Source: Mycteria americana
Taxonomy: Eukaryota > Chordata > Aves > Ciconiiformes > Ciconiidae
Reading direction: 5' to 3'
Assembly: GCF_035582795.1 (NCBI RefSeq)
Contig: NC_134369.1
Coordinates: 63,054,001 to 63,118,000, forward strand
Length of the DNA stretch: 64,000 nucleotides
Each line of letters begins with the position of its first letter. Position 1 is the first letter of the stretch. The position numbers and the translations under genes were made by a program. Below are positions 15,500-40,360 of this stretch, piece by piece. A model generated the notes under the pieces. The model worked only from the letters and a program-made list of their open reading frames with translations. It was not told where the DNA came from and did no database searches.

Positions 15500-15810
15500 G
15501 TACGAGAGATGGAACTACGGGAGACAGTCCAGCTAAGGCCCACTGAGATGATTAAGGACTGGAGCATCTCTCCTATACGGGAAGGCTGAGAGAGCTGGGA
15601 CTGTTCAGCCTGGAGAAGAGAAGGCTCAGGAGGGATCTTATCAATGTACATCAAGTATATGCAGAAGATGGAGGCAGGCTCTTTTCAGTGGTGCCCAGTG
15701 CAAGGGCAAGAGGCAACGGGCACAAACTGGGACACAGGAGGTGCCGTCTGAACATCAGGAAACCCTTGTTCACTGTGAGGGTGACCACGCACTGGCACTA
15801 GCACTGGCAC
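15500..15810 (+). repeat. CR1 LINE 3' fragment cut by the palindrome
   Basis: The sequence contains typical CR1 3'-region landmarks: gactgttcagcctggagaag, then ggcacaaactgggacacagg and gtgagggtgacc. The match stops at 15810, exactly where the left palindrome arm begins. The normal CR1 continuation (ggctgcccagagagg) is missing outside the arm. The fragment shares 55 identical bases with the CR1 piece inside the arm at about 17372-17432. Confidence 0.85.
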
Positions 15811-15940
15811 AATCAACTCCTGTGCTGAGCAAGATGCCCACAGAACTATGGCCTCAATCCCAAATCCTGGGAGGAACCTGACTGGGGAAAAAGGAAAAAA
15901 AGAAAGAAGAAAAAAATTAAAAGGTAATCCCCAGCTACTC

Positions 15941-15966
15941 TTTTTTTTTTTTTTTTTTTTTTTTTT
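15941..15966 (+). repeat. T26 homopolymer (left arm)
   Basis: A run of 26 T, paired with 25 A at 31791-31815. Read on the opposite strand it looks like a poly(A) tail, but no AATAAA or recognisable retrocopy precedes it. Confidence 0.9.
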
Positions 15967-16214
15967 GGAAGGCAGAAATACTTCTTTTCCTCCTCCCTAA
16001 TACAGTATAATAGAATAAAGCTGTTTCCCCTCACCCTAATATAGACATTTTTCAAGACACAAAACCTGTCATTTTTCAACATTCACTCACTTGTGTCAGT
16101 GCAGAAAAGAGACTGCCCAGCTAGCAGTTTTCAGCCCAAGTTGTGGATAAACTGTAGGCTACTGAACAGAAACAGCAATGATGTCTGAAGGCAGAAATGA
16201 ACTATATAGTAACT

Positions 16215-17338
16215 CCAGCTGCTGTTGTTTAACTGTGTGTGTTGACACATCTACTGCAAAATGTTCTAAATAAACAAACATTTTGGTTCTGCTGCAGGAA
16301 ACCATTTTTTCAAAAGAATAAAAAGTGTGCAGCTAATTCTTACTACATATCATAGTCACAAAGAAACACGTTCCACTTCTTTCGTTTATTTCTAATACAG
16401 ATCTCAAAGCATTTTTAATTGTTGTATTTTTTCCCTTTGCAGTGCTACTCAGCATAAAAGAAGTCATGACAATCACGTGAAAAGTATCATTAGTTTTAAA
16501 CTCTACAGAAAGATCATTTTAGGTTCTGCGGGACTCCTTCCAGAAGGAAATTAATGACTTCCTGGTGAATATGCTTTTGCCTGTCTGGTAACCGATCGGA
16601 TCTCAATCAAAAGGAACCATAAAATTGTCACTAGTAAGTTGTACATGTCATGTAATACTTTCTTTCACATCTCTGATCAATCTTTGATCAGAGAGACCCA
16701 ATTCGAAAAATGTAAAGCTCTGACTTAGAAGGGAAGAAGACAGCATGTCTTCATTTTAACAGAACTGAAATTCAATTTGAGTAGGATTACTGGAGTTGGT
16801 CAGAATTTCAAAACTTTGTTTTACAGAATAACCAGCTTTTGAAAACATTTCTGGCAAAAAAAAGATAAAGTTTTTTCCCTTTTTTTTAAAAACATTCAGC
16901 ATTGTTAATTTACAGTTGTCTTTTCCATATAAAAATATATTTTATTTTAAAAAGTCAAAACTGTATGCTATTAACAGCATACACCTGATAATCACTTCAT
17001 ATGTTAGAATATAGAATTCTGAATGACCTCACTAGATCAGAGAAGTGATCTCAAGTAAATTGCAAAATTGTATATAGGAATGACTCATTGCAAAACCAGA
17101 TGGGTAGAGGATGGAAGACTATGTACCAGTTCCAGAGAAACTGTCTAGAGAATACACAGGAATTGCACTTTAAACAAGAGACGTTGACAATAGAAAAAGA
17201 AACATAATGGGGAAGCTCAGAGACCTGCCACATGAGTATTTCCCTCACATGATGCTACAGGCAAGAGAATATTACCTAAGAGGGTAGAATGTTTTGCAGT
17301 GGATGTGTCAACATACACAGTTAAACAGCAGCACCTGG
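16215..17338. mobile_element. Possible small DNA transposon with 54-bp terminal inverted repeats (left arm)
   Basis: The end at 16215-16268 (ccagctgctgttgtttaact...) is an imperfect inverted copy of 17285-17338 (...agttaaacagcagcacctgg), roughly 87 percent alike by eye. The 1016 bp between them show no mutual similarity and no transposase frame. The trinucleotide act flanks both outer ends and could be a 3-bp target duplication, but that is weak. I do not recognise the family. Confidence 0.5.
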
Positions 17339-17580
17339 ACTTATGGGCAAGGGGCAACAGGCACAAACTGGAACACAGGAGGTGCCGTCTGAACATCAGG
17401 AAACCCTTGTTCACTGTGAGGGTGACCGAGCACTGGCCCAGGTTGCCCAGAGGGGTTGTGGAGTCTCTGTCCCTGGAGGTAACTCAAAAGCCATCTGGAC
17501 GTGGTCCTGGCCAGCAAGGGGGTTGGACCAGATGGCCTCCAGAGGTCCTTCCGACCTCAACCTTTCTGCGATGCTGTGAT
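17339..17580 (+). repeat. CR1 LINE 3' end (left arm)
   Basis: The sequence carries the classic CR1 tail: caggcacaaactggaacaca, then cccagaggggttgtggagtc, ggttggaccagatggcctcc, and an end near tctgcgatgctgtgat. It abuts the 54-bp inverted repeat on its 5' side. Confidence 0.9.
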
Positions 17581-19849
17581 AAAGAGGCTTTTCCAAAAGC
17601 ATATGTAGACAAGGCTGAAGCCACCTCTGACCCATTACCCGAGAAGTGAGTGCCTATAGTGAGGGAAATAGGATTTTAAAACCGACAAGCGCTAATGCCT
17701 CCAGTAGTTAAATGCCAGTCAAGGACTGGGATGGCTTAGAGGACCAAAAGATCTCGGGATGTGCTTCTGAATTTATTTCATGTAAATTTGTGTGGGCCTG
17801 TCCATAACGAACAAGGCAACGCTGATCCCACATCTGCGATGTGTGTTTAAGACTGACTGTCAGGACGTTCTCCGATTTGTGGTATACAGTTCACCCTAGA
17901 GCATCATCATAACCTGTTCTAGTCTTAAAATTTGCTTTATTTAACTCCTGTTTATGAAGGAGATGGACTCTTTGTGAATGCTGAATGATCTTAGGCCTGC
18001 TGGAAAGAATTCATAGTGTAGTCGTCTGTGACACTGAAGAGGGTCATTGACACCAGAAGCGAGCCGGAAGAATACACGTTTTCTCTTTTCCTCTGCATAC
18101 TGCTGGTAGACTACTTTTACCGGAAGCAAGATAGCTTCTGCGTGCGTATCGAGATGGGAGGGGATCACCTATACCTGGCAGGGGACTTTGGGAGGGGGAG
18201 TGGTTTTGATTGTGCAGCGGGCAGATGAAGGCAGAAGTTAATTTTTGAACACAGAAGAGCGTTGAAGACGGGGAAAAACGATGAAAAATGACGAAAGCAG
18301 CAAGAACGTGTAACTTCCCTCCTGAGCTGGTGGTTGAAAAAGGTGAACGGCAGGGGAAGGTAAGGATTGGCCAGAGGTTGGCCACATCGCTAAGCTTCAA
18401 GGTTTTGCTCAGGGGTTTCTGTACCTTTAAAGGGCCACCCATAAAACGTTTTGGTAGAGGTTGGTAGGGGAGCTGGGGAACAGAAGAGAATCTGCTGTGG
18501 ATCTCAGGATAGAGACACTCTTGCTAGTCAGATGGTGCCTGGAGCGCCCAGACTTCCATTTTCACTTCTCTGCAAAGTGCACTCGACCTAAAAGCATTAA
18601 CTATGCCAGCTGTTACTCCAGGTACACAGAGGTTGTCAAAAGATTAGGCAGTGTTATCTCTGGTTCCTAAATTGAGTCCTTAGAGCGCCTGAGAGCGCAC
18701 TTGCTCTACACTTGTTTCAGTAGAATCTTATTGTTACGATGAACGCTTTTACACAGCGAAAGAGAAAAGAATACAAACCTGGACATTGTAGTCACTTGGG
18801 TTTGCCATAGGGAATCGAGGACAGGAGATATACTAGCCTTTAATCTACCTGTGCTTGTGAAATCGAGCCATTTCAAAGGAGTTTGGCCTTCCTAGTGGGC
18901 ATTCAGCACTGATCACAAAGCAAGGTTAGAAGTTTCACATTTCCTTGCCTAAAAAGCGTGTCAGTAAGGATGTGGGTGGTTGGAATGAACCCTACAGATC
19001 TCCTGCTGAGACTACGGACACTGGCAAAAGGGCATTCTGCAGAGAGTGCGAGTGTAGGAATTAAGATGAGTATGGATGTCAAAGCGACTTATGTCCAAAG
19101 AAAACAGGACTGCCCTTTTTTAACTGTACGTGATTTTAAGAGGCACAGGTGAGTGCGTATATTTACTTCAGAAACGCTGGTCTTTTCTGGCGCAGTTGTG
19201 CTCTTGTAGGCATCCGAGCTACCCGTTTACAAAGCTTGCTCATGGATTTTACATGAGCTTTTGTTTACAGTGCAGACAGAGAGAGTTGACAGTTAACAGG
19301 AAAAGGAAGGCAGGAGATGGAATTTGGACAATGAAGGGATGGAGTGACTAGGGTGACTTCATGGAGCACAATGCGTGCAGTCACAACAGGCTCTGTATTG
19401 CTTAACCCGTGGTCAGGGGTCTCAGGTTTATTTGCACTAACCACCGCTCTTCTGCAGAACCCTGACATGCCCAGAATGAGAACTTGCTCAGACAAAGGGC
19501 TGCTCAAACAGTCACACAGATGATGGTCCAAGGGAAAAGAATTGCCTTGCAGAAACTAGAGAAATGCTGCAGCTTGCTAACCGAAGGTGAGCCTCTTCTC
19601 TAAAACTGACGTTTGTGGAGAATTTGTGTAACCTTGGGAAAGAAAAACACCCTTGTGTGCAGCCAACAGTGAGATGTAAGTACGTGACAGCTAAGAACTG
19701 TCATACAAGCAATTCCAGCAAATAGTCTGCCTGCAGTCATCCTGGAAGCTCTAGCGAACCTTTATTTACGTCGGTTGACAATAGTCGAGGCGATTGTCTA
19801 GCTACATCGTCCATCAAAAATAATGAGTCTCTTAAAAAATCTCCATACG
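17581..19849. other. Unrecognised DNA in left arm
   Basis: About 2.3 kb with only short open frames (up to 132 codons on the - strand at 18044-18442, starting MGGPLKVQKPLSK). I do not recognise any product. The mirror stretch is 27908-30176. Confidence 0.6.
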
Positions 19850-21145
19850 TTATTGGATCCGTTTTCAAGGATCACCTCCTCTGAGCCCAAGAATGATCCA
19901 TTCCAAAGAGCAGGAAACCAAGCAAAGGTAGAAGGTGGCCCACGTGGATGAACAAGGAACTCCAGACAAAAGTCAAGCCTAAAAAGGAAGCGTACAAGAG
20001 GTGGAAGAAGGGACGGGTGACCCAGGGGGAATATCGACATACTGTCAGAGAGTGCGGGGATGTTATGAAAGCCAAGGCCCACCTGGACTTGAATTTAGAG
20101 AGGCACGTGAAGGGCAACAATAAATCCTTCTAGAGGTAAATGAGCAGCCAAAGGATGACTAGGGAAAGCGTGGGCCCACTGCGGGATGGCAGGGCACCTG
20201 GTGACAAAGGACGTGGAAAAAGCTGACAGTGCCACCTTTGCCTCAGTCTTTACTGGTAATATTTGCCTTCAGGAATCCAGGCACCTGAGACCCATGGGAA
20301 GGTGAGGGCTGAGGAAGACTTACTCTCACTGGAGAAGGAGCAGCTTAGGGAACATTTAAATAAACCAGACACTGACAAGTCCCTGGGACCTGATGGGCTG
20401 CACCCACGAGTGCCGAGGGAGCCGGCCGATGCTGTTTGAGGGCACTTGATAATCTTCAAAAGGTCATGACATCAGGGAAAGGTTCCCGAGGAGTGGAAGA
20501 GAGCAAATGTCACTTCTGCCTTCAAGAAAGGCGAGGAGGAGGAGGAGATGGGGAACTAGAGGCTGGCCAGCCTCACCTCAGTCCCTGGAAAAGTGGTGGA
20601 AGTCCCAGGAAAAGTCCCTGGAAGCCATTTCCGGACATACGAAGGTCAAAATGGCCATTAGGAGCAGTCACCACCGATTCGTCATGCTTGATCAACCTGA
20701 TAGCCTTCTCTGACTAGATGACTGGCTCAGTGGTGAGGGGAGAGCAGTGGATGTTGTTTGTCTCGACTTTACTATGGCTTTGGACACGGTCCCCCGTAAC
20801 ATCCTCGTAGACAAAGTGATGATGTATGGGCTAGGTAAGTGGACAGTGAGGTGCGCTGAAAACTGGCTGAACTGCCAAGGTCAAAGGGTCGTAATCAGCA
20901 GCACGATATGCAGCTGGAGTCGAGTCACTAGCTACGTACCCCAGGGGTCGATAATGGCTCCGACATCTTCATTAACGAGCTGGATGATGGGACAGAGCGC
21001 ACCCTCAGCAACCCGGCAGACAACACAAAACTGGGAGGAGTGGTTGGTACATCAGACGGTTGTGCCACCATTCGGAGGGACCTGGACAGGCTGAGCAAAT
21101 GAGTCAACAGAAATCTTTTGCAGTTCACCACGGGGAATTAAGTTC
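19850..21145 (+). pseudogene. Degraded CR1 LINE ORF2 fragment (left arm)
   Basis: Broken frames on the + strand match the linker and N-terminal reverse transcriptase of CR1. They include WMNKEL and AYKRWKKGRVTQGEYRHTVR near 19950-20060, then GPDGLHPRVPRE near 20390, DVVCLDFTMALDTVP near 20750 and VPQGS near 20935. Several frame breaks and stops make it inactive. The 3' end of the element is not attached. Confidence 0.88.
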
Positions 21146-22080
21146 TAAACCAAACTAGCAGCTCCTTAAAGAAACTGTAGTTGGTCAGAAGAAAAGGTAC
21201 TAAAAAAACAATACTCACAGTAGCCAATTTCATTCCATGTATAATTTCACATGTAATGCTGTGACCCAGTTTAACACTTTGAGGCCTCAGCCCTTACTGG
21301 AGCTTAAGGCAGGTAAACTCAGGTTTCTGACAGGTCCTAGCTGAATCCTATTTCCTATTACACGTCCTAACACACTTCATAGTTGAACAAAATCCCGAGG
21401 AGATGTCTTATTAAAATTCCCTAATCGAGACATTAGGTCTTTGGCCTGGAAAAAAACAAGCAACATTCTACTTGAAATACTCAACCAAATTATTAAGTTG
21501 TCATTTTTATATTTTTTTTCCCCTGGACAGTCACGTGCCAAATAATATGCCTCAGAGGTAGGATTCATCATCTGACTGAATTCAGCTATCTAAAAGACAG
21601 GCATCTAGTCGCAACTAATTAGGTTAATAATTAGAGGTTAATAATTCTTTAATAGGAACCAGAATTTCCTGAGAGGCATAGTATACGTCCAGCATCCACA
21701 GTGGTTGACCGTAAGCTAAAAACATACTTAAGTTTTTGTTTGTTTTTCTTTGGTTTTGGTTTTTTTTTTTTTTAAGTTCTGCTGTGTTTGATCTGCTGAC
21801 AGAGAATACCTAGGTCAGAGTACATGCTGTGCCATCAGCTCCTCTCAGCCTGCAGCCCCACGAGCCACCGATTACAGTGACAAGGGACGCAAGGATGGGA
21901 AGCAGATGCTGTTAGTTGCATACAAATGCTGCAGTGGTTACCAGACTGCAGAAACTTGCACACTGGGCTGCGCAAGTTTAACTCCCCTTTCTTTGAGGGG
22001 TGGATGGGACCAAAACTTTTCTGTCAGAGTGGAGAAGCCCACTGAGATGACAACGGCATTAAGGTGTTTCCAGGTGAAAA
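21146..22080. other. Unrecognised DNA in left arm
   Basis: No gene or known repeat is recognised. It contains a T-rich tract near 21760. The mirror is 25677-26611. Confidence 0.55.
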
Positions 22081-22101
22081 GGTGGTGGTGGTGGTGGTGG
22101 T
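22081..22101 (+). repeat. (GGT)7 microsatellite (left arm)
   Basis: Seven exact GGT units. Read on the - strand in one short frame they give a histidine run, which is a by-product of the repeat. Confidence 0.95.
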
Positions 22102-22565
22102 GAATCCACAGGAATTGCGCGCCTGCCATAGGTGTCAAGTCTCAGAGAAACAGTAATGCTAAAAGCACCAGTGCAAATGCCAAGAAAAATCCTGATATGA
22201 CATGAAATACTAGCAGAACTCCTAGGTGGACTACTCTACAAGAGGGGCTGCTCAACCTCTGGGTTTTTTCAGGCTTGTTAATCCTTGCCTGTCTTTTTTA
22301 GCTCTGCCAGAAAGCCGAAGGGTTAGACTCTGTGCATCACTGATCACCATTTTGAGCACAGGGAAGTGACATCTCAAAGCTGGCTGTAGTGGCTAAGGCA
22401 CCGCCTAGGTCTGTGGGCGTATGGCCAAGAAACTGTCCTGTCTCAGCCTTGGCAGCGTAGCTCTAGAAAAAACACTGATGCCACAAAACATGCCAATGCA
22501 GGCAAGTCTAGAGCAGCACTCAAATGACTCGGTAAGGAGAAGTTCCTGCAGTTAACCTCTCCTTC

Positions 22566-23292
22566 ACCTGTGGGGTGTAAGTTGGCAGCAGACCCTGCAC
22601 CGGGTACTCAGGAGTACGGTCTGGCACTAGGCTGTAGGCACTGGCAAGGGCGCAGGCTGAATAGGGCTTTAGGCAAAGTAAGGTAAGTGGTTTGGCATCA
22701 AGAACTAAAATACAATTGGAAGAAGGTAGACAGCATACGTGAGCACCAAAGTGCAGCATGACTCCCAGGCCTCACAGAGGCTGCAGGCAAGATAAACTAC
22801 TGACATTTTTAAGGACTTTATAAAATGAAAGAAAATTAATAATAAAACCATCCTGACATACAAGTAGGAAAAGGGAGCAGATGCCAGGATGACTTCATAA
22901 AGCACGTGCATGCGATCAGCCCCACTGAGGATGTGGAGCGTGCCGTACCAATACACCAGCTTGTTGGCAGGAGGTGAAGGCCAGGGACAGAGCACTATGT
23001 ACTGATGAGGTTAAGAGGGTTCTCCATTCCTGAGTACCTGTGGTGCAAGAAAAAAGTCTGAAAGGATATATAGACTATCAGGTGAAGAGAAAACACATCT
23101 GTGAAACATAGCATAGCTTTTGGACAACAAGTCAGAAATACCTTTCTTCGTTGATTTTTCTTACCTGTCCCGTTGCCCAAGCTGCATGAGCAAGCCTACC
23201 TGCATTGACATGTTTTGGGGAAGATGCTGCCCTCCACAGGAATCGGTTTTCGGCCACTGAGGTCTACAACGCTGGTCCTCTTCTGCTGATCC
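22566..23292 (-). other. Putative spliced transcript leaving the left arm
   Basis: Mirror image of the right-arm candidate. It has the same donors and acceptors on the - strand, so the two would be identical head-to-head transcripts. Confidence 0.3.
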
Positions 23293-23318
23293 CACCTTGA
23301 TGATTTTTGGGGTTGCCC

Positions 23319-23348
23319 TTTATACCCCACCCCCCCACCCCACCCCCC
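23319..23348 (-). promoter_or_regulatory. Outward-facing G-run and TATA box (left arm)
   Basis: On the - strand, four G-runs with one-base loops (23325-23348) are followed directly by TATAAA (23319-23324). This is the exact mirror of the right-arm element. It would fire leftward, away from the palindrome centre. Promoter function is inferred. Confidence 0.5.
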
Positions 23349-23722
23349 AAATGCTCTGGCCTGTGGCTTGTTTCCTTGGTTCTGCAGCCTGCCCAGCCCA
23401 CGTTTCTCCAAAGAGCCCTGGCTCCTGTGCCCTGGGCCATGGTCATCTCACCTTACAGATTTTCTTCCTCCCTGCTCCGGGGAAATCCCTTCCAAGGAAC
23501 TGACCGAGAGGCATTGTTCCTTTTCTTCTATCCATAGTGGTATTAATCACAGCGCTATTGCTTTATTTTCTCCTAGGTTGTGTTCATTATGCTTACTCAG
23601 TAGTTTCTTAGTGCATCAGTTCTGCATTCTGTTCAAACTCAGTCAAAACGCCAGCATAGATAAGTCAATGTACTGGCTGAGTTTAAGTTACAATTACTAG
23701 AACAATATGACAGTCATTACAC

Positions 23723-24034
23723 AAGTTTGGCTCAGGAAGGCCAGGCAAGAGGAAGGGCAACACCACATTTGACAATGCACCACTCCTGTTTCTCGCTTTC
23801 GCATGTTGTTACATGTAGAAAGGGTAATAACAAAGAGTGAAACACATTGTCTTTGTCACTGCATAAACATTAGAAATAGTGAAGTTCTGAGATACAGTGA
23901 GGTTGAAAAATGACTTGCTAAACAAACAAGAAGATCTTAAAGTAACAACAAGGGAAAAGAGACTTACCAAGGTGAAACTGAGCTGAACTTACATTCTGGA
24001 GAAAGAGGCACACACTGCTGTTAGTAACACCTTG
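23723..24034. other. Palindrome spacer (312 bp)
   Basis: This is unique sequence between the arms. The arms pair up to cattacac (left) / gtgtaatg (right) and then diverge. It has no open frame of note and no recognised repeat. It would be the loop of a hairpin. Confidence 0.9.
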
Positions 24035-24408
24035 GTGTAATGACTGTCATATTGTTCTAGTAATTGTAACTTAAACTCAGCCAGTACATTGACTTATCTA
24101 TGCTGGCGTTTTGACTGAGTTTGAACAGAATGCAGAACTGATGCACTAAGAAACTACTGAGTAAGCATAATGAACACAACCTAGGAGAAAATAAAGCAAT
24201 AGCGCTGTGATTAATACCACTATGGATAGAAGAAAAGGAACAATGCCTCTCGGTCAGTTCCTTGGAAGGGATTTCCCCGGAGCAGGGAGGAAGAAAATCT
24301 GTAAGGTGAGATGACCATGGCCCAGGGCACAGGAGCCAGGGCTCTTTGGAGAAACGTGGGCTGGGCAGGCTGCAGAACCAAGGAAACAAGCCACAGGCCA
24401 GAGCATTT

Positions 24409-24438
24409 GGGGGGTGGGGTGGGGGGGTGGGGTATAAA
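24409..24438 (+). promoter_or_regulatory. Outward-facing G-run and TATA box (right arm)
   Basis: Positions 24409-24432 hold G6-T-G4-T-G7-T-G4, a textbook G-quadruplex motif that also resembles stacked KLF/CACCC boxes. It is followed at once by TATAAA (24433-24438). Transcription would start near 24463-24470. About 95 and 130 bp further lie splice donors cag|gtaggc (24558) and ag|gtaaga (24593). Function is inferred. Confidence 0.5.
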
Positions 24439-24464
24439 GGGCAACCCCAAAAATCATCAAGGTG

Positions 24465-25191
24465 GGATCAGCAGAAGAGGACCAGCGTTGTAGACCTCAG
24501 TGGCCGAAAACCGATTCCTGTGGAGGGCAGCATCTTCCCCAAAACATGTCAATGCAGGTAGGCTTGCTCATGCAGCTTGGGCAACGGGACAGGTAAGAAA
24601 AATCAACGAAGAAAGGTATTTCTGACTTGTTGTCCAAAAGCTATGCTATGTTTCACAGATGTGTTTTCTCTTCACCTGATAGTCTATATATCCTTTCAGA
24701 CTTTTTTCTTGCACCACAGGTACTCAGGAATGGAGAACCCTCTTAACCTCATCAGTACATAGTGCTCTGTCCCTGGCCTTCACCTCCTGCCAACAAGCTG
24801 GTGTATTGGTACGGCACGCTCCACATCCTCAGTGGGGCTGATCGCATGCACGTGCTTTATGAAGTCATCCTGGCATCTGCTCCCTTTTCCTACTTGTATG
24901 TCAGGATGGTTTTATTATTAATTTTCTTTCATTTTATAAAGTCCTTAAAAATGTCAGTAGTTTATCTTGCCTGCAGCCTCTGTGAGGCCTGGGAGTCATG
25001 CTGCACTTTGGTGCTCACGTATGCTGTCTACCTTCTTCCAATTGTATTTTAGTTCTTGATGCCAAACCACTTACCTTACTTTGCCTAAAGCCCTATTCAG
25101 CCTGCGCCCTTGCCAGTGCCTACAGCCTAGTGCCAGACCGTACTCCTGAGTACCCGGTGCAGGGTCTGCTGCCAACTTACACCCCACAGGT
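24465..25191 (+). other. Putative spliced transcript leaving the right arm
   Basis: Downstream of the TATA box, a first exon could end at 24592 (acag|gtaaga). It could join an acceptor at 24718-24719 (tttttcttgcaccacag). A further acceptor-like attttag lies at about 25050 and a donor cacag|gtgaag near 25190. The joined frame from atg at 24549 is only about 29 codons, so a non-coding RNA is more likely than a protein. An open frame at 24762-25052 reads KLVYWYGTLHILSGADR. I could not identify it. Confidence 0.3.
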
Positions 25192-25655
25192 GAAGGAGAG
25201 GTTAACTGCAGGAACTTCTCCTTACCGAGTCATTTGAGTGCTGCTCTAGACTTGCCTGCATTGGCATGTTTTGTGGCATCAGTGTTTTTTCTAGAGCTAC
25301 GCTGCCAAGGCTGAGACAGGACAGTTTCTTGGCCATACGCCCACAGACCTAGGCGGTGCCTTAGCCACTACAGCCAGCTTTGAGATGTCACTTCCCTGTG
25401 CTCAAAATGGTGATCAGTGATGCACAGAGTCTAACCCTTCGGCTTTCTGGCAGAGCTAAAAAAGACAGGCAAGGATTAACAAGCCTGAAAAAACCCAGAG
25501 GTTGAGCAGCCCCTCTTGTAGAGTAGTCCACCTAGGAGTTCTGCTAGTATTTCATGTCATATCAGGATTTTTCTTGGCATTTGCACTGGTGCTTTTAGCA
25601 TTACTGTTTCTCTGAGACTTGACACCTATGGCAGGCGCGCAATTCCTGTGGATTC

Positions 25656-25676
25656 ACCACCACCACCACCACCACC
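25656..25676 (+). repeat. (ACC)7 microsatellite (right arm)
   Basis: Mirror of the (GGT)7 tract with the same unit number, although microsatellites normally diverge in length quickly. Confidence 0.95.
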
Positions 25677-26611
25677 TTTTCACCTGGAAACACCTTAATG
25701 CCGTTGTCATCTCAGTGGGCTTCTCCACTCTGACAGAAAAGTTTTGGTCCCATCCACCCCTCAAAGAAAGGGGAGTTAAACTTGCGCAGCCCAGTGTGCA
25801 AGTTTCTGCAGTCTGGTAACCACTGCAGCATTTGTATGCAACTAACAGCATCTGCTTCCCATCCTTGCGTCCCTTGTCACTGTAATCGGTGGCTCGTGGG
25901 GCTGCAGGCTGAGAGGAGCTGATGGCACAGCATGTACTCTGACCTAGGTATTCTCTGTCAGCAGATCAAACACAGCAGAACTTAAAAAAAAAAAAAACCA
26001 AAACCAAAGAAAAACAAACAAAAACTTAAGTATGTTTTTAGCTTACGGTCAACCACTGTGGATGCTGGACGTATACTATGCCTCTCAGGAAATTCTGGTT
26101 CCTATTAAAGAATTATTAACCTCTAATTATTAACCTAATTAGTTGCGACTAGATGCCTGTCTTTTAGATAGCTGAATTCAGTCAGATGATGAATCCTACC
26201 TCTGAGGCATATTATTTGGCACGTGACTGTCCAGGGGAAAAAAAATATAAAAATGACAACTTAATAATTTGGTTGAGTATTTCAAGTAGAATGTTGCTTG
26301 TTTTTTTCCAGGCCAAAGACCTAATGTCTCGATTAGGGAATTTTAATAAGACATCTCCTCGGGATTTTGTTCAACTATGAAGTGTGTTAGGACGTGTAAT
26401 AGGAAATAGGATTCAGCTAGGACCTGTCAGAAACCTGAGTTTACCTGCCTTAAGCTCCAGTAAGGGCTGAGGCCTCAAAGTGTTAAACTGGGTCACAGCA
26501 TTACATGTGAAATTATACATGGAATGAAATTGGCTACTGTGAGTATTGTTTTTTTAGTACCTTTTCTTCTGACCAACTACAGTTTCTTTAAGGAGCTGCT
26601 AGTTTGGTTTA
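25677..26611. other. Unrecognised DNA in right arm
   Basis: Mirror of 21146-22080. Nothing is recognised. Confidence 0.55.
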
Positions 26612-27907
26612 GAACTTAATTCCCCGTGGTGAACTGCAAAAGATTTCTGTTGACTCATTTGCTCAGCCTGTCCAGGTCCCTCCGAATGGTGGCACAACCG
26701 TCTGATGTACCAACCACTCCTCCCAGTTTTGTGTTGTCTGCCGGGTTGCTGAGGGTGCGCTCTGTCCCATCATCCAGCTCGTTAATGAAGATGTCGGAGC
26801 CATTATCGACCCCTGGGGTACGTAGCTAGTGACTCGACTCCAGCTGCATATCGTGCTGCTGATTACGACCCTTTGACCTTGGCAGTTCAGCCAGTTTTCA
26901 GCGCACCTCACTGTCCACTTACCTAGCCCATACATCATCACTTTGTCTACGAGGATGTTACGGGGGACCGTGTCCAAAGCCATAGTAAAGTCGAGACAAA
27001 CAACATCCACTGCTCTCCCCTCACCACTGAGCCAGTCATCTAGTCAGAGAAGGCTATCAGGTTGATCAAGCATGACGAATCGGTGGTGACTGCTCCTAAT
27101 GGCCATTTTGACCTTCGTATGTCCGGAAATGGCTTCCAGGGACTTTTCCTGGGACTTCCACCACTTTTCCAGGGACTGAGGTGAGGCTGGCCAGCCTCTA
27201 GTTCCCCATCTCCTCCTCCTCCTCGCCTTTCTTGAAGGCAGAAGTGACATTTGCTCTCTTCCACTCCTCGGGAACCTTTCCCTGATGTCATGACCTTTTG
27301 AAGATTATCAAGTGCCCTCAAACAGCATCGGCCGGCTCCCTCGGCACTCGTGGGTGCAGCCCATCAGGTCCCAGGGACTTGTCAGTGTCTGGTTTATTTA
27401 AATGTTCCCTAAGCTGCTCCTTCTCCAGTGAGAGTAAGTCTTCCTCAGCCCTCACCTTCCCATGGGTCTCAGGTGCCTGGATTCCTGAAGGCAAATATTA
27501 CCAGTAAAGACTGAGGCAAAGGTGGCACTGTCAGCTTTTTCCACGTCCTTTGTCACCAGGTGCCCTGCCATCCCGCAGTGGGCCCACGCTTTCCCTAGTC
27601 ATCCTTTGGCTGCTCATTTACCTCTAGAAGGATTTATTGTTGCCCTTCACGTGCCTCTCTAAATTCAAGTCCAGGTGGGCCTTGGCTTTCATAACATCCC
27701 CGCACTCTCTGACAGTATGTCGATATTCCCCCTGGGTCACCCGTCCCTTCTTCCACCTCTTGTACGCTTCCTTTTTAGGCTTGACTTTTGTCTGGAGTTC
27801 CTTGTTCATCCACGTGGGCCACCTTCTACCTTTGCTTGGTTTCCTGCTCTTTGGAATGGATCATTCTTGGGCTCAGAGGAGGTGATCCTTGAAAACGGAT
27901 CCAATAA
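26612..27907 (-). pseudogene. Degraded CR1 LINE ORF2 fragment (right arm)
   Basis: Mirror copy of the left-arm fragment with identical frame breaks. The same motifs (NKEL, LDFTMALDTVP, VPQGS) read on the - strand. Confidence 0.88.
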
Positions 27908-30176
27908 CGTATGGAGATTTTTTAAGAGACTCATTATTTTTGATGGACGATGTAGCTAGACAATCGCCTCGACTATTGTCAACCGACGTAAATAAAGGTT
28001 CGCTAGAGCTTCCAGGATGACTGCAGGCAGACTATTTGCTGGAATTGCTTGTATGACAGTTCTTAGCTGTCACGTACTTACATCTCACTGTTGGCTGCAC
28101 ACAAGGGTGTTTTTCTTTCCCAAGGTTACACAAATTCTCCACAAACGTCAGTTTTAGAGAAGAGGCTCACCTTCGGTTAGCAAGCTGCAGCATTTCTCTA
28201 GTTTCTGCAAGGCAATTCTTTTCCCTTGGACCATCATCTGTGTGACTGTTTGAGCAGCCCTTTGTCTGAGCAAGTTCTCATTCTGGGCATGTCAGGGTTC
28301 TGCAGAAGAGCGGTGGTTAGTGCAAATAAACCTGAGACCCCTGACCACGGGTTAAGCAATACAGAGCCTGTTGTGACTGCACGCATTGTGCTCCATGAAG
28401 TCACCCTAGTCACTCCATCCCTTCATTGTCCAAATTCCATCTCCTGCCTTCCTTTTCCTGTTAACTGTCAACTCTCTCTGTCTGCACTGTAAACAAAAGC
28501 TCATGTAAAATCCATGAGCAAGCTTTGTAAACGGGTAGCTCGGATGCCTACAAGAGCACAACTGCGCCAGAAAAGACCAGCGTTTCTGAAGTAAATATAC
28601 GCACTCACCTGTGCCTCTTAAAATCACGTACAGTTAAAAAAGGGCAGTCCTGTTTTCTTTGGACATAAGTCGCTTTGACATCCATACTCATCTTAATTCC
28701 TACACTCGCACTCTCTGCAGAATGCCCTTTTGCCAGTGTCCGTAGTCTCAGCAGGAGATCTGTAGGGTTCATTCCAACCACCCACATCCTTACTGACACG
28801 CTTTTTAGGCAAGGAAATGTGAAACTTCTAACCTTGCTTTGTGATCAGTGCTGAATGCCCACTAGGAAGGCCAAACTCCTTTGAAATGGCTCGATTTCAC
28901 AAGCACAGGTAGATTAAAGGCTAGTATATCTCCTGTCCTCGATTCCCTATGGCAAACCCAAGTGACTACAATGTCCAGGTTTGTATTCTTTTCTCTTTCG
29001 CTGTGTAAAAGCGTTCATCGTAACAATAAGATTCTACTGAAACAAGTGTAGAGCAAGTGCGCTCTCAGGCGCTCTAAGGACTCAATTTAGGAACCAGAGA
29101 TAACACTGCCTAATCTTTTGACAACCTCTGTGTACCTGGAGTAACAGCTGGCATAGTTAATGCTTTTAGGTCGAGTGCACTTTGCAGAGAAGTGAAAATG
29201 GAAGTCTGGGCGCTCCAGGCACCATCTGACTAGCAAGAGTGTCTCTATCCTGAGATCCACAGCAGATTCTCTTCTGTTCCCCAGCTCCCCTACCAACCTC
29301 TACCAAAACGTTTTATGGGTGGCCCTTTAAAGGTACAGAAACCCCTGAGCAAAACCTTGAAGCTTAGCGATGTGGCCAACCTCTGGCCAATCCTTACCTT
29401 CCCCTGCCGTTCACCTTTTTCAACCACCAGCTCAGGAGGGAAGTTACACGTTCTTGCTGCTTTCGTCATTTTTCATCGTTTTTCCCCGTCTTCAACGCTC
29501 TTCTGTGTTCAAAAATTAACTTCTGCCTTCATCTGCCCGCTGCACAATCAAAACCACTCCCCCTCCCAAAGTCCCCTGCCAGGTATAGGTGATCCCCTCC
29601 CATCTCGATACGCACGCAGAAGCTATCTTGCTTCCGGTAAAAGTAGTCTACCAGCAGTATGCAGAGGAAAAGAGAAAACGTGTATTCTTCCGGCTCGCTT
29701 CTGGTGTCAATGACCCTCTTCAGTGTCACAGACGACTACACTATGAATTCTTTCCAGCAGGCCTAAGATCATTCAGCATTCACAAAGAGTCCATCTCCTT
29801 CATAAACAGGAGTTAAATAAAGCAAATTTTAAGACTAGAACAGGTTATGATGATGCTCTAGGGTGAACTGTATACCACAAATCGGAGAACGTCCTGACAG
29901 TCAGTCTTAAACACACATCGCAGATGTGGGATCAGCGTTGCCTTGTTCGTTATGGACAGGCCCACACAAATTTACATGAAATAAATTCAGAAGCACATCC
30001 CGAGATCTTTTGGTCCTCTAAGCCATCCCAGTCCTTGACTGGCATTTAACTACTGGAGGCATTAGCGCTTGTCGGTTTTAAAATCCTATTTCCCTCACTA
30101 TAGGCACTCACTTCTCGGGTAATGGGTCAGAGGTGGCTTCAGCCTTGTCTATATATGCTTTTGGAAAAGCCTCTTT
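27908..30176. other. Unrecognised DNA in right arm
   Basis: Mirror copy of 17581-19849. Nothing further is visible. Confidence 0.6.
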
Positions 30177-30418
30177 ATCACAGCATCGCAGAAAGGTTGA
30201 GGTCGGAAGGACCTCTGGAGGCCATCTGGTCCAACCCCCTTGCTGGCCAGGACCACGTCCAGACGGCTTTTGAGTTACCTCCAGGGACAGAGACTCCACA
30301 ACCCCTCTGGGCAACCTGGGCCAGTGCTCGGTCACCCTCACAGTGAACAAGGGTTTCCTGATGTTCAGACGGCACCTCCTGTGTTCCAGTTTGTGCCTGT
30401 TGCCCCTTGCCCATAAGT
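30177..30418 (-). repeat. CR1 LINE 3' end (right arm)
   Basis: Mirror copy of the CR1 tail on the - strand. It contains both substitutions that distinguish the arms (30152 lies just outside it, 30264 inside). Confidence 0.9.
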
Positions 30419-31542
30419 CCAGGTGCTGCTGTTTAACTGTGTATGTTGACACATCCACTGCAAAACATTCTACCCTCTTAGGTAATATTCTCTTGCCTGT
30501 AGCATCATGTGAGGGAAATACTCATGTGGCAGGTCTCTGAGCTTCCCCATTATGTTTCTTTTTCTATTGTCAACGTCTCTTGTTTAAAGTGCAATTCCTG
30601 TGTATTCTCTAGACAGTTTCTCTGGAACTGGTACATAGTCTTCCATCCTCTACCCATCTGGTTTTGCAATGAGTCATTCCTATATACAATTTTGCAATTT
30701 ACTTGAGATCACTTCTCTGATCTAGTGAGGTCATTCAGAATTCTATATTCTAACATATGAAGTGATTATCAGGTGTATGCTGTTAATAGCATACAGTTTT
30801 GACTTTTTAAAATAAAATATATTTTTATATGGAAAAGACAACTGTAAATTAACAATGCTGAATGTTTTTAAAAAAAAGGGAAAAAACTTTATCTTTTTTT
30901 TGCCAGAAATGTTTTCAAAAGCTGGTTATTCTGTAAAACAAAGTTTTGAAATTCTGACCAACTCCAGTAATCCTACTCAAATTGAATTTCAGTTCTGTTA
31001 AAATGAAGACATGCTGTCTTCTTCCCTTCTAAGTCAGAGCTTTACATTTTTCGAATTGGGTCTCTCTGATCAAAGATTGATCAGAGATGTGAAAGAAAGT
31101 ATTACATGACATGTACAACTTACTAGTGACAATTTTATGGTTCCTTTTGATTGAGATCCGATCGGTTACCAGACAGGCAAAAGCATATTCACCAGGAAGT
31201 CATTAATTTCCTTCTGGAAGGAGTCCCGCAGAACCTAAAATGATCTTTCTGTAGAGTTTAAAACTAATGATACTTTTCACGTGATTGTCATGACTTCTTT
31301 TATGCTGAGTAGCACTGCAAAGGGAAAAAATACAACAATTAAAAATGCTTTGAGATCTGTATTAGAAATAAACGAAAGAAGTGGAACGTGTTTCTTTGTG
31401 ACTATGATATGTAGTAAGAATTAGCTGCACACTTTTTATTCTTTTGAAAAAATGGTTTCCTGCAGCAGAACCAAAATGTTTGTTTATTTAGAACATTTTG
31501 CAGTAGATGTGTCAACACACACAGTTAAACAACAGCAGCTGG
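30419..31542. mobile_element. Possible small DNA transposon (right-arm copy)
   Basis: Mirror copy of the 54-bp inverted-repeat pair, with ends at 30419-30472 and 31489-31542. All comments on the left-arm copy apply. Confidence 0.5.
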
Positions 31543-31790
31543 AGTTACTATATAGTTCATTTCTGCCTTCAGACATCATTGCTGTTTCTGTTCAGTAGCC
31601 TACAGTTTATCCACAACTTGGGCTGAAAACTGCTAGCTGGGCAGTCTCTTTTCTGCACTGACACAAGTGAGTGAATGTTGAAAAATGACAGGTTTTGTGT
31701 CTTGAAAAATGTCTATATTAGGGTGAGGGGAAACAGCTTTATTCTATTATACTGTATTAGGGAGGAGGAAAAGAAGTATTTCTGCCTTCC

Positions 31791-31815
31791 AAAAAAAAAA
31801 AAAAAAAAAAAAAAA
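31791..31815 (+). repeat. A25 homopolymer (right arm)
   Basis: A run of 25 A, the mirror of the T26 tract in the left arm. The one-base difference is one of the few arm differences. Confidence 0.9.
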
Positions 31816-31944
31816 GAGTAGCTGGGGATTACCTTTTAATTTTTTCTTCTTTCTTTTTTTCCTTTTTCCCCAGTCAGGTTCCTCCCAGGATTTGGGATTG
31901 AGGCCATAGTTCTGTGGGCATCTTGCTCAGCACAGGAGTTGATT

Positions 31945-32873
31945 TAAGACCATCCCATCCTCAGCCTTTTGCTTCCATCTCTATTCTTGCCACTTTTGAT
32001 TGTCCAGTATAACAATTAGTGGGCCTTTCCACTAAGCTGGATCAGAAAACTAGCCCAGGTTGAAAACACTCTGCACTTCAACATTTTTTCCCCAGGATTG
32101 TTTTTTAACCCTCACTGATTTTGATTACCATCCAGTGTTCAGCCATCTGGACAGCTGTACATGAAGTGATGTGGGATGTGAATGAAGAGACTGGGGTAAA
32201 GTGGGAGGTCCAAAACCTGCTTAATCGAGCACTGCTCCCAAGGGAACCGTGACTTAAGGGACAAAATGTGAATAACTAGGGAGAGAGAGCTGAGGGGAAA
32301 TTTCAGCTGTAAAATGAAGAAAAAGAGGGAGAGAGGGAGAACCAACAGTGACTAAGACTACCAGGTACTTGTTTCACCTAAACCAATCCAGATAAATGAC
32401 TAATCTTTTTCATGAGAGAGATGCTGTTGACCCCTTTTGTAAGACCCTTTTTCTGAATTATTAGGAATTCTGCGGATTCCTATCCAGTGAAAAAGGCAAT
32501 TATCTTATGCTAGCACTACTCTTGCTTCCTGTCACTTGAGCACAAGCTAAATTTCAGATATCCTGATAATACTCTTAATTATGGTCTTGTAAATTGTTCA
32601 TGCTAAAGCCCATTGAGAGCTCTATGAGAGATTTGACTTGGAATGCATTGGTGGAATGTACACATTTAAATAGATAAAACATCTGGGAAGTACATGTTTC
32701 ATGTGAACTGGTTTCTAAAGAGCTCTGCATACTGAAATTAATTGCAAATATAGTGTCATAAAGCCATCTATTTGCAATTGTGTTAATCTTCACTGATTTA
32801 TCACTTCAAAAATTCAGTTTCAGTATGATCGTAAACTGGGAACTGAGCCCCCAGCTTACAATTACAGACGCAT
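31945..32873. other. Intergenic DNA right of the palindrome
   Basis: Unique-looking sequence. It does not continue the CR1 that is cut at the left edge of the palindrome. No gene is seen. Confidence 0.6.
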
Positions 32874-33466
32874 TGTCCTGGTTTTGTCTGGGATAGAGTT
32901 AATCTTCTTCCTAGTAGCTGGTATAGTGCTGTGTTTTGGATTTTAGTATGAGAATAATATTGATAACACGCTGATGTTTTTGGCTGTTGCTAAGTGGTGT
33001 TTACACTGGTCAAGGACTTTTCAGCTTCCCGTGCTCTGCCAGGCACACAAGAAGCTGGGAGGGGGCACAGCCAGGATAGTTGATCCAAACTGACCAAAGT
33101 TTGGATTCCATACCATATGATGTCATGCTCAGTATATAAACTGGGGGGAGTTGGCTGGGGGTAGCGGTCGCTGCTTGGGGACTGGCTAGGTGTCGGTCAG
33201 TGGGTGGTGAGCAGTTGTATCACTGTTTTTTTTTTCCCTTGGGTTTTGTTCCTCACTTGCTCTCTTGTTGTTTTCCTTCTCATTACATTTTATTATTATT
33301 ATTATTTTTATTTTTGTTCCAATTATTAAACTGTTGTTATGTCATCCCACAAGTTTTCTTACTTTTGCTCTTCCGATTCTCTCCCCTATCCCACCGGGGG
33401 GGGGTGGGGGGGAGTGAGCGAGTGGCTGTGTGGTACTTAATTGCCTACTGGAGCTAAACCACAACA
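32874..33466 (+). mobile_element. Solo LTR, ERVL-type avian endogenous retrovirus
   Basis: The 593-bp unit begins tgtcctggttttgtctggga and ends ctaaaccacaaca (TG...CA). It has a TATA box (tatataaa, 33133-33140), a (TTA)n stretch near 33290, ATTAAA near 33325, and the GC-poor 3' tail ending in a G-run. I recall this LTR as abundant in Neoaves. No internal gag/pol sequence or second LTR is present, so it is a solo LTR. The 5-bp flanks (cgcat and gctgt) do not match, so no target duplication remains visible. Confidence 0.85.
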
Positions 33467-36545: not shown

Positions 36546-36951
36546 GAATAAAAGACGGGTCATTGTCATAGGAGACTCCCTTCTGAAGGGAACAGAAGGC
36601 CCAGTATGCAGACCGGACCCACTTCTTAGGGAAGTCTGCTGCCTCCCTGGGGCCCATGTAAAAGGTGTGAAGAGAAAAAATCCTACCCTGATACGGCCCT
36701 CAGATTACTATCCATTATTGATTTTTCAGGTAGGCAGCAATGAAGCTGCAACTAGAAGTCCAAGGGCAATCAAGAGAGACTTCAGGGCCTTGGGATGACA
36801 TAGTGACAAAGGATGAGGAAAGGCTGAGGTACTTAATGCCTTCTTTCCCTCAGTCTTTAATAGTAAGATCAGTTGTTCCCCGGGTACCCAGCCTCCTGAG
36901 CTGGAAGACAGGGATGGGGAGCAGAATGAAGCCCCCATAATCCAAGGGGAA

Positions 36952-37578
36952 ATGGTTAATGACCTACTACACTACTTAGACACACACAGGTCTATGGGGC
37001 CAGATAGGATCCACCCAAGAGTACCGAGGGAGCTGGCAGAAGCGCTCACCAAGCCACTTTCAATCCTTCATCAGCAGTCCTGGCTAACCGGGGAGGTCCC
37101 AGTTGACTGGAGATTAGCAAATGTGATGCCCATCTACAAGAAGGGCCGGAAGGAGTATCCAGGGAACTACAGGCCTGTCAGCCTGACCTCGGTGCCAGGG
37201 AAGGTTATGGAGCAGATCATCTTGAGTGCCATCACGCGGCATGTACAGGACAAGCAGGTGATCAGACCCAGTCAGCATGGGTTTATGAAAGGCAGGTCCT
37301 GCTTGACTAACCTGACCTCCTTCTACAACAAGGTGACCCACTTAGTGGATGAGGGAAAGGCTGTTGTGGATGTTGTCTACCTAGACTTTACTAAAGCCTT
37401 TGACACCATTTCTCACAGCATTCTCCTGGAGAAACTGGCTGCTCATGGCTTGGACAGGCATATGCTTCGCTGGGTAAAGAACTGGCTAGATGGCCGGGCC
37501 CAAAGAGTTGTGGTGAACGGAGTTAAATGCAGTTTGCGGCCGGTCACAAGTGGTGTGTTCCCCAGGGCTCAGTATTGA
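36952..37578 (+). pseudogene. CR1 reverse transcriptase, N-terminal frame
   Basis: 208 codons covering the fingers and palm start of the CR1 reverse transcriptase. The frame ends in a premature stop just after the 2-bp insertion that breaks the conserved G-V-P-Q-G motif. Confidence 0.92.
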
Positions 37579-38441
37579 GGCCAGTTCTGTTTAATATCTT
37601 TATCAATAATCTGGACAAGGGGATCAAGTGCACCCTCAGTAAGTTTGCAGACGACACCAAGCTGGGTGGGAGTGTTGATCTGCTTGAGGGTAGGAAGGCT
37701 CTACAGAGGGACCTGGACAGGCTGGATCGATGGGCCGAGGCCGGCTATATGAGGTTCAACAAGGCTAAGTGCCAGGTCCTGCACTTTGGTCACAACAACC
37801 CCATGCAACACTACAGGCTTGGGGAAGAGTGGCTGGAAAGCTGCCAGGCAGAAAAGGACCTGGGGGTGTTGGTCAACAGCCAGCTGAATATGAGCCAGCA
37901 GTGTGCCCAGGTGGCCAAGAAGGCCAATAGCATCCTGGCTTGTATCAGAAATAGTGTGGCCAGCAGGACTAGGGAAGTGATTGTCTCCCTGTACTCAGCA
38001 CTGGTGAGGCCACATCTTGAATACTGTGTTCGGTTTTGGGCCCCTCGCTACAAGAGAGACATTGAGGTGCTGGAGTGCATCCAAAGAAGGGCAACAAAGG
38101 TGGTGAAGGGTTTAGAGAGCAAGTCTTATGAGGAGGGGCTGAGGGAACTGGGGTTGTTTAGCCTGGAGAAAAGGAGGCTGAGGGGAGACCTTATTGCTCT
38201 CTACAACTACCTGAAAGGAGGCTGTAGAGAGGTGGATGTCGGTCTCTTCTCCCAAGTAGCAAGTGATAGGACAAGAGGAAACAGCCTCAAGTTGTGCCAG
38301 GGGAGACTGGATATTAGGAAAAATTTCTTCACTGAAAGGGTTGTCAAGCATTGGAACAGGCTGCCCAGGGAAGTGGTTGCGTCACCATTCCTGGAGGTAT
38401 TTAAAAGACGGGCAGATGTGGTGCTTAGGGGCATGGTTTAG
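37527..38441 (+). pseudogene. CR1 reverse transcriptase, C-terminal frame
   Basis: 304 open codons holding [15 protein letters not shown] (active-site aspartates), the thumb region and the C-terminal [14 protein letters not shown] segment. The true CR1 part begins at about 37560. The first codons are out-of-frame read-through. Confidence 0.92.
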
Positions 38442-38520
38442 TGGTGGACTTGGTAGTGCTAGGTTAATGGTTGGACCTGATGATCTCAAAGGTCTTTTCC
38501 AACCTAAATGATTCTATGAT

Positions 38521-39589: not shown

Positions 39590-40360
39590 AAACGCGCCGC
39601 TGCTCTTTGCTTCTCCTTCCAGCATGAAAAGACCTTGACGTTTCCCCCCGGGGGCTGGCGCTGCCCCGCGGCCGCAGCGGCACAAAGTACAAGGGGTGGT
39701 GCCGCACGCTGGCGGCGGTGCCGGGGCTCGCCCCGGCCCGGCCCGACCCCTCTCCCTCACCTCCCCCCGGGGCGAGGGGCCCCGCCGCCCCCCGGCTGTA
39801 CCTCACGGCCACCCGCAACCCTCGACCTCCAGCCGCCGCCTCCTCGCGGCCCGCTTCGGAGGGCGGGCACGGCGGCTCTCCCCGCCTCTGGGGGCAGCGC
39901 CGCGGCCCGGGCAGGCCCCACCCCGCTGCCTGCCCGGCCGGCGGGGCGGGAAGGGGCGGCCCCGCAGCCGCCCTATAACTACCCCTTCGCCGGGCGGGCG
40001 GGAGGTAGCGGTTCCTCAGGAGCGGGATGGAGGCGGCAGCGGCGGGGAAGCACCCTGCGGGGACGCGCTCTCTGGGCAGAGCCCTGGCCGGCACCCGCCC
40101 CCAGGAGCGCCCCAGCTGCCCCCCGGTCTTCGCCGGCGGCTCGAAGGCCGAGGCGCGGGTGCTGGTCATCAACACGGGCGGCACCATCGGCATGGTGCAG
40201 GATGTCAAGGGTGAGGGGGCCCCGGGCGGAGGGGGGAGCGGGGCGGCGGAGGCGGGCTCCCCCTCAGGGTACGCTGCGAAACAGGCCTGGCGTGGGGTGC
40301 TGGCGGGGCGCCGGGCTAGGGGTGCGCTGCTTGGCGAGCGGAGGCTGAGGCTGCCGCTTC
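39590..40360 (+). promoter_or_regulatory. ASPG: CpG island and promoter of ASPG
   Basis: Very GC-rich, CpG-dense DNA in an otherwise AT-rich window, covering the first coding exon. A TATA-like tataac sits at 39974-39979 and GGGCGG-type boxes surround it (for example near 39990-40000). A start near 40000 would leave a short 5'UTR. The long open frames here, such as 39524-40348, follow from GC content. Confidence 0.75.
40027..40210 (+). CDS. ASPG: ASPG exon 1: start and first catalytic Thr
   Basis: 184 nt, ending agg|gtgagg in phase 1. The first 42 residues are Ala/Gly/Arg/Pro-rich and look disordered. Then [16 protein letters not shown] gives the nucleophile motif. The context of the ATG (gcgggATGg) is fair. 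Confidence 0.92.

Follow-up and report, generated by a model that had tools for sequence, protein, structure and literature searches.

The window, a stretch of 64,000 nucleotides of the Mycteria americana genome (C5:63054001-63118000), lies on a contig of 75.2 Mb and contains a large palindrome upstream of ASPG. A human ASPG sequence served as query. It gave exon matches on the forward strand at 40150, 46113, 49796, 52691, 54256, 55444, 62268 and 63901. The match at 40150 is a weak motif match (E = 1.0) and the one at 46113 has E = 0.007; the six from 49796 on have E values of 1e-6 or better. The direction of ASPG is rightward from about 40.1 kb. The open reading frame (ORF) piece with ASPG exon 1 had a weak Pfam asparaginase match (E = 0.025), and a PDB search with this piece returned nothing relevant. 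The sequence-only reading had located the palindrome between TDRD9 and ASPG. The exon matches support the ASPG side; for TDRD9, a helicase-motif scan of 264 kb (the window and twenty adjacent 10-kb stretches) found nothing. In the window, no Rfam family reached the gathering threshold and ARAGORN detected no tRNAs. None of ten stop-free ORF pieces, five of them from the arm, scored over the Pfam cut-off. RD3L was considered as an arm gene and rejected: the query reached only E = 0.6 in the arm, which was taken as chance.

Two repeats lie between the palindrome and the main ASPG matches. In a long CR1 upstream of ASPG (36798-38520), reverse-transcriptase frames stay open over 253 and 304 codons. 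This CR1 belongs to another subfamily, with 61-66% identity to the arm and left-flank copies. The sequence at 32873-33213 resembles the beginning of a solo LTR from an avian endogenous retrovirus, and has a 75.7% inverted match about 86 kb to the left.

A BLASTN comparison of the window with itself yielded one large inverted pair, 15811-23722 with 31944-24035, at 99.949% identity with two mismatches and two gaps. The left arm (15811..23722, forward strand) has 7912 bp, the right arm (24035..31944, reverse strand) 7910 bp, and the spacer between them (23723..24034) 312 bp, confirming the dimensions first read from the sequence. An inverted pair of such length and identity cannot be due to chance. 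In a megablast listing of the 264 kb, no inverted pair other than the palindrome exceeds both 150 bp and 76% identity. The spacer occurs once in the 1.35-Gb assembly. With two inverted arms of several kb, more than 99% identical, around a unique spacer, the object belongs to the general kind of large palindromes. Beyond 15811 and 31944, neither the self-alignment nor the arm walk shows a match between the two flanks.

Walking the arms base by base confirmed two substitutions and two one-base homopolymer differences. At 15916/31839, an A run is one A longer in the left arm than in the right; at 15966/31790, the left arm has T26 and the right arm T25. At 17493/30264, an A in the left arm stands against a G in the right (left-arm strand), the right arm reading CG and the left CA. 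At 17605/30152, the left arm has G and the right arm A (left-arm strand). None of the four differences is deeper in the arm than 1.8 kb from the outer end, a placement with a chance of 0.05 when just the two substitutions are counted. Homopolymers of at least 8 bases have equal lengths in both arms in four of five cases. The (GGT)7 tract at 22081 is in a stretch without arm differences and has, as previously noted, the same length in both arms.

The homopolymer lengths, two of the four arm differences, would be in keeping with an assembly artefact, either a fold-back or a mis-joined haplotype copy. So would an arm identity above the usual allele identity; zebra finch heterozygosity, for example, is given as 0.95% in PMC9516828. 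Such an artefact is nevertheless unlikely. The two substitutions are not of the homopolymer type. A fold-back alone leaves the second, different outer flank unexplained. An artefact would have to combine a fold-back around an asymmetric, unique spacer with another false join, also gap-free, where the far arm ends. False duplications are mostly separated by gaps (PMC9516828); this signature, a gap between the copies, is absent here, and the 264 kb contain no N bases. The fold-back feared in the sequence-only reading is thus less likely than it had seemed, because the spacer is asymmetric and single-copy, the outer flanks differ and 264 kb are free of N.

The palindrome had been assigned to an autosome by synteny. 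The assembly (1,348,465,905 bases in 279 contigs) was searched for DM domains, and five matches were obtained: three within 101 kb on contig C32, two on C7 and none on C5, the contig of the palindrome. A cluster of three DM genes is taken here as a marker of the avian Z. Since this cluster sits on C32 and C5 has no match, the chromosome of the palindrome is not the Z. The DM-domain evidence speaks to the Z alone, and the autosomal placement is supported to that extent.

The left edge of the palindrome is associated with a cut CR1. CR1a (15504..15798, forward strand) is a left-flank fragment covering positions 686-992 of the CR1 consensus used, with its 3′ side cut. Its end at 15798 is followed by a 12-bp repeat of the sequence just before it (15799..15810, forward strand; 10-bp copies lie at 15789 and 15801), and then by the palindrome start at 15811. 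The 12 bp are possibly repair filler or the product of simple slippage. CR1 insertions lose their 5′ side, not their 3′ side, and the 3′ cut of CR1a therefore looks like a breakpoint. The outer 1.53 kb of the left arm, segment O (15811..17344, forward strand), is flank-like in composition (GC 0.353, CpG ratio 0.17). It is followed by CR1b (17345..17579, forward strand), a CR1 3′ end with consensus positions 898-1156. The mirror of O in the right arm, O′ (30413..31944, reverse strand), is supposed to be the original place of O.

A 59-bp inverted pair was observed at 16210-16268 and 17285-17343 (mirror 30414-30472 and 31489-31547). Its two copies are 1.1 kb apart and 88% identical, with TA at both outer ends, and the pair stops one base before CR1b. 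Neither the pair nor segment O has another copy among the matches listed in the genome. The pair could represent the ends of an old DNA transposon.

The search of the assembly with the arm returned at least 58 rows. Two are the arms themselves, five are short and internal to the locus, where they represent CR1a and the 59-bp inverted pair, and 51 have matches to CR1 only. These 51 cover just the two CR1 parts of the arm at 68-86% identity. They stem from the best 40 of 5668 candidates, the only ones scored, and closer CR1 copies may have escaped. Near-identical copies of the arm elsewhere in the assembly were not among the matches listed from these best 40 of 5668. Recognisable CR1 amounts to about 1.5 kb of the 7.9 kb (17345-17579 and about 19860-21140), so the arms consist mostly of other sequence and are not full of CR1 as initially described.

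CR1a and CR1b are complementary CR1 parts (686-992 and 898-1156) in the same orientation, about 1.5 kb apart. They overlap by 93 bp with 94.6% identity, i.e., 5 of 93 positions differ (93.7% over 95 aligned columns). Each of 12 control CR1 copies is at most 86% alike to CR1a or CR1b. The 66 control-control pairs have a mean identity of 74% in the same stretch and a top identity of 94.3%. CR1a and CR1b may therefore be independent, as one control pair is equally alike. In the 95 columns, CR1a and CR1b have 11 common states unlike the control majority, all of them A/T to G/C. Seven of these occur in two controls at most, and four in three or more. On this sequence comparison we infer, with reservation, that both are one CR1 split by segment O.

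A real inverted duplication off the Z, millions of years old and with arms kept 99.95% alike by gene conversion, is the tentatively preferred explanation, held at somewhat less than even confidence. A replication or repair error would have duplicated 17345-23722, the original arm, in inverted orientation across the spacer. The right outer junction would lie within the CR1, at about 30412/30414. At this stage, the left side would have carried an unbroken CR1 (686 to 1156), and O would have been present on the right alone. The left CR1 may later have broken near position 992 and been repaired by invasion of the right arm. Synthesis would have continued beyond the end of homology, copying 1.53 kb of the right flank (O′), and the new end would have been joined to the left stump with the 12-bp filler. 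Recombination assays know such repair, starting by homology and ending by end joining. As an outcome, the arms would have been lengthened outward, with O on the left and CR1 positions 898-992 (93 bp) duplicated. The same step would also place the edge of the palindrome right at the cut of the CR1. Arm-to-arm conversion since then would have erased divergence. The structure, the cut CR1, the overlap with CR1b and the base composition are observed; the order of events, the age and the conversion are, like the single CR1, what we infer from them. The prior probability of an old palindrome outside the sex chromosomes is low, which counts against the conversion-held reading.

A single inverted duplication some tens of thousands of years ago is almost as likely as the conversion-held palindrome and thus a serious possibility, if short of an even chance. 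The arm identity would then be high only because the duplication is young. The right arm would be the original. A single replication error with template switches would have put its inverted copy into the left flank, where the CR1 had broken, and CR1a and CR1b would be separate insertions of one subfamily. A recent event is simple, requires no conversion and would allow the GC and CpG richness of the arms to predate the duplication. The left edge, a breakpoint with a filler-like repeat, is as this model requires, and the two control CR1 copies with 94.3% identity are in line with it. With the left arm as the new copy, the edge involves no coincidence; the likeness and the fit of the two CR1 pieces are all that chance has to supply. 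It must then account for their spacing of 1.5 kb, their common orientation, their complementary extents and the seven states, rare in controls, that both have. If O had been inserted into the CR1 first and the palindrome had formed later, an edge within 12 bp of the CR1 cut would have a chance of about 0.003. The sequence-only reading had left a young duplication and gene conversion side by side; the balance is tipped slightly to conversion by the CR1 pieces at the left edge, without settling the matter.

Two clocks were read at 2.0e-9 per year, the rate given for zebra finch (PMC12047795). Two substitutions in the 7910 bp of the arms (0.025%) correspond to 63 kyr (interval 8-228 kyr), as expected for a recent event. 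The 5 of 93 differences between CR1a and CR1b correspond to 13.4 Myr (4.4-30), valid if they are halves of one element; independent insertions would void this clock. Under the CR1 clock, about 82 differences are expected between O and O′ (27 at the lower bound), and no substitution was observed. Gene conversion would close this gap. The rate required is about 2e-5 per site per generation, the same order as the 4.5e-5 given for primate X palindromes (PMC8981503). The CR1-based date, with its five differences in 93 bp and the assumption of a single element, suggests an old age of the palindrome without proving it.

The CR1 reverse-transcriptase fragment of the arm (19860..21140, forward strand) has 35 CpGs. 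Of these, 28 do not fall on putative ancestral CpG sites, compared with 3-9 in 13 control CR1 copies from elsewhere in the genome. The fragment kept 7 of 56 putative ancestral CpGs, and the controls 1-10. Off the ancestral CpG sites, changes from A/T to G/C and the reverse number 60:43 in the arm and 372:503 in the controls (p = 0.003); over all scored sites, the counts are 96:72 and 639:841 (p = 0.0007). Ratios above 1 are also seen in two of the 13 controls, L029 and L032; over all scored sites, the ratio of L032 is the same as that of the arm (1.34). CR1b has 19:3, with 263:336 in its controls. CR1a, outside the palindrome, likewise has an excess (20:7). By position, CR1a has 10:7 outside the overlap and 10:0 inside with all 15 control rows, and 10:7 and 10:1 with the 10 closer control rows. 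The comparison of 10:7 with 19:2 for the overlap plus arm positions 993-1156 gave p = 0.051. The GC-biased change in the arm CR1 fits the direction predicted by GC-biased conversion. The same bias would arise from a recombination hotspot or if the CR1 subfamily were richer in GC. Subfamily differences could imitate the bias in that four of the 11 states common to CR1a and CR1b recur in three or more controls.

The GC content of the arms is about 0.45 (segment values), that of the flanks 0.37-0.39. The best GC change-point of the left arm is at 17209, near the supposed old arm end at 17345, with a step from 0.343 to 0.471; none of 500 block permutations reached its likelihood. The outer 1.53 kb of the arm has no GC rise. 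The interior zone (17577..21135, forward strand) has a GC content of 0.479 and a CpG ratio of 0.475. Outside the arms, the maximum CpG ratio of 352 windows of 3.5 kb is 0.28 when the ASPG island is left out; with islands included, 106 of 964 windows in the 264 kb reach 0.475. These equally strong CpG-rich zones elsewhere are consistent with a real palindrome whose GC- and CpG-rich interior owes nothing to arm conversion and marks an unmethylated element or a local hotspot of recombination. The rise is limited to the interior, with a peak at 17.6-21.1 kb, and zebra finch recombination is enriched near CpG islands (PMC12047795). A hotspot must take the GC step near the supposed old arm end as chance. 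This explanation is possible but rather doubtful, and it can be combined with either age of the palindrome. Simulated conversion raised GC by a median of just 0.68% over 29 Myr (PMC8981503), which leaves the greater part of the GC difference to be explained otherwise. The GC rise alone was dropped as proof of conversion in view of the small simulated gain, the 106 of 964 windows and the excess in CR1a.

Within the interior, the 2.3 kb at 17577-19859 have a CpG ratio of 0.5 and no other copy among the matches listed in the genome. No gene or CR1 was recognised in this stretch. It is possibly an unmethylated element.

In shape, the palindrome resembles those of sex chromosomes and the duck W. 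In human Y P6 (99.97%; PMC3723533) and primate X palindromes, where gene conversion keeps the arms alike, arm identity is likewise above 99.9%. Human X palindromes have GC-richer arms than flanks as well (46.3% and 41.2%; PMC8981503). Unlike sex-chromosome palindromes, the present one is not on the Z, its arms of 7.9 kb are short compared with P6 (110 kb), and no gene was recognised in its arms in a limited search of five arm ORF pieces against Pfam. Among birds, 38 palindromes of 15.2-345.5 kb were described on the duck W, seemingly without robustly expressed genes (PMC7787181), and W palindromes are known from New World sparrows and blackbirds (PMC7692361). The avian W palindromes are built of nested repeats, whereas here most of the arm is single-locus among the matches listed. 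Human fold-back inverted duplications also have an inverted copy split by a single-copy, disomic spacer (PMC3907307). They differ by their ties to terminal deletions or translocations and by 2-8 bp of inverted microhomology at 13 sequenced junctions. The spacer ends here have 0 bp, so a human-type fold-back route is not supported; of simulated spacers, 55% also lacked inverted microhomology. In the titles and abstract starts of open-licence literature, the matches listed included no palindrome at this locus and no large one on bird autosomes.

Large near-perfect palindromes are discussed mostly for sex chromosomes. The fullest form of the preferred reading is a long-lived, conversion-held palindrome on an ordinary bird chromosome, grown outward by repair over-run and with the split CR1 as a dateable scar. 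It is offered as a conjecture, less likely than not to be right. If true, conversion-maintained palindromes would need neither a sex chromosome nor genes, and palindrome arms could lengthen by over-run of repair. A palindrome with no identified genes on a recombining bird chromosome would separate the mechanical upkeep by conversion from the usual selection arguments. The split CR1 at the edge, if upheld, would provide a clock outside the arms that separates age from conversion in one genome.

Many, at least, of the listed relatives of the arm CR1 are located on contig C33 and on small contigs (C35, C36 and C228), including the copies L024, L029, L030, L032 and L034. From the contig order, C33 could be the W.
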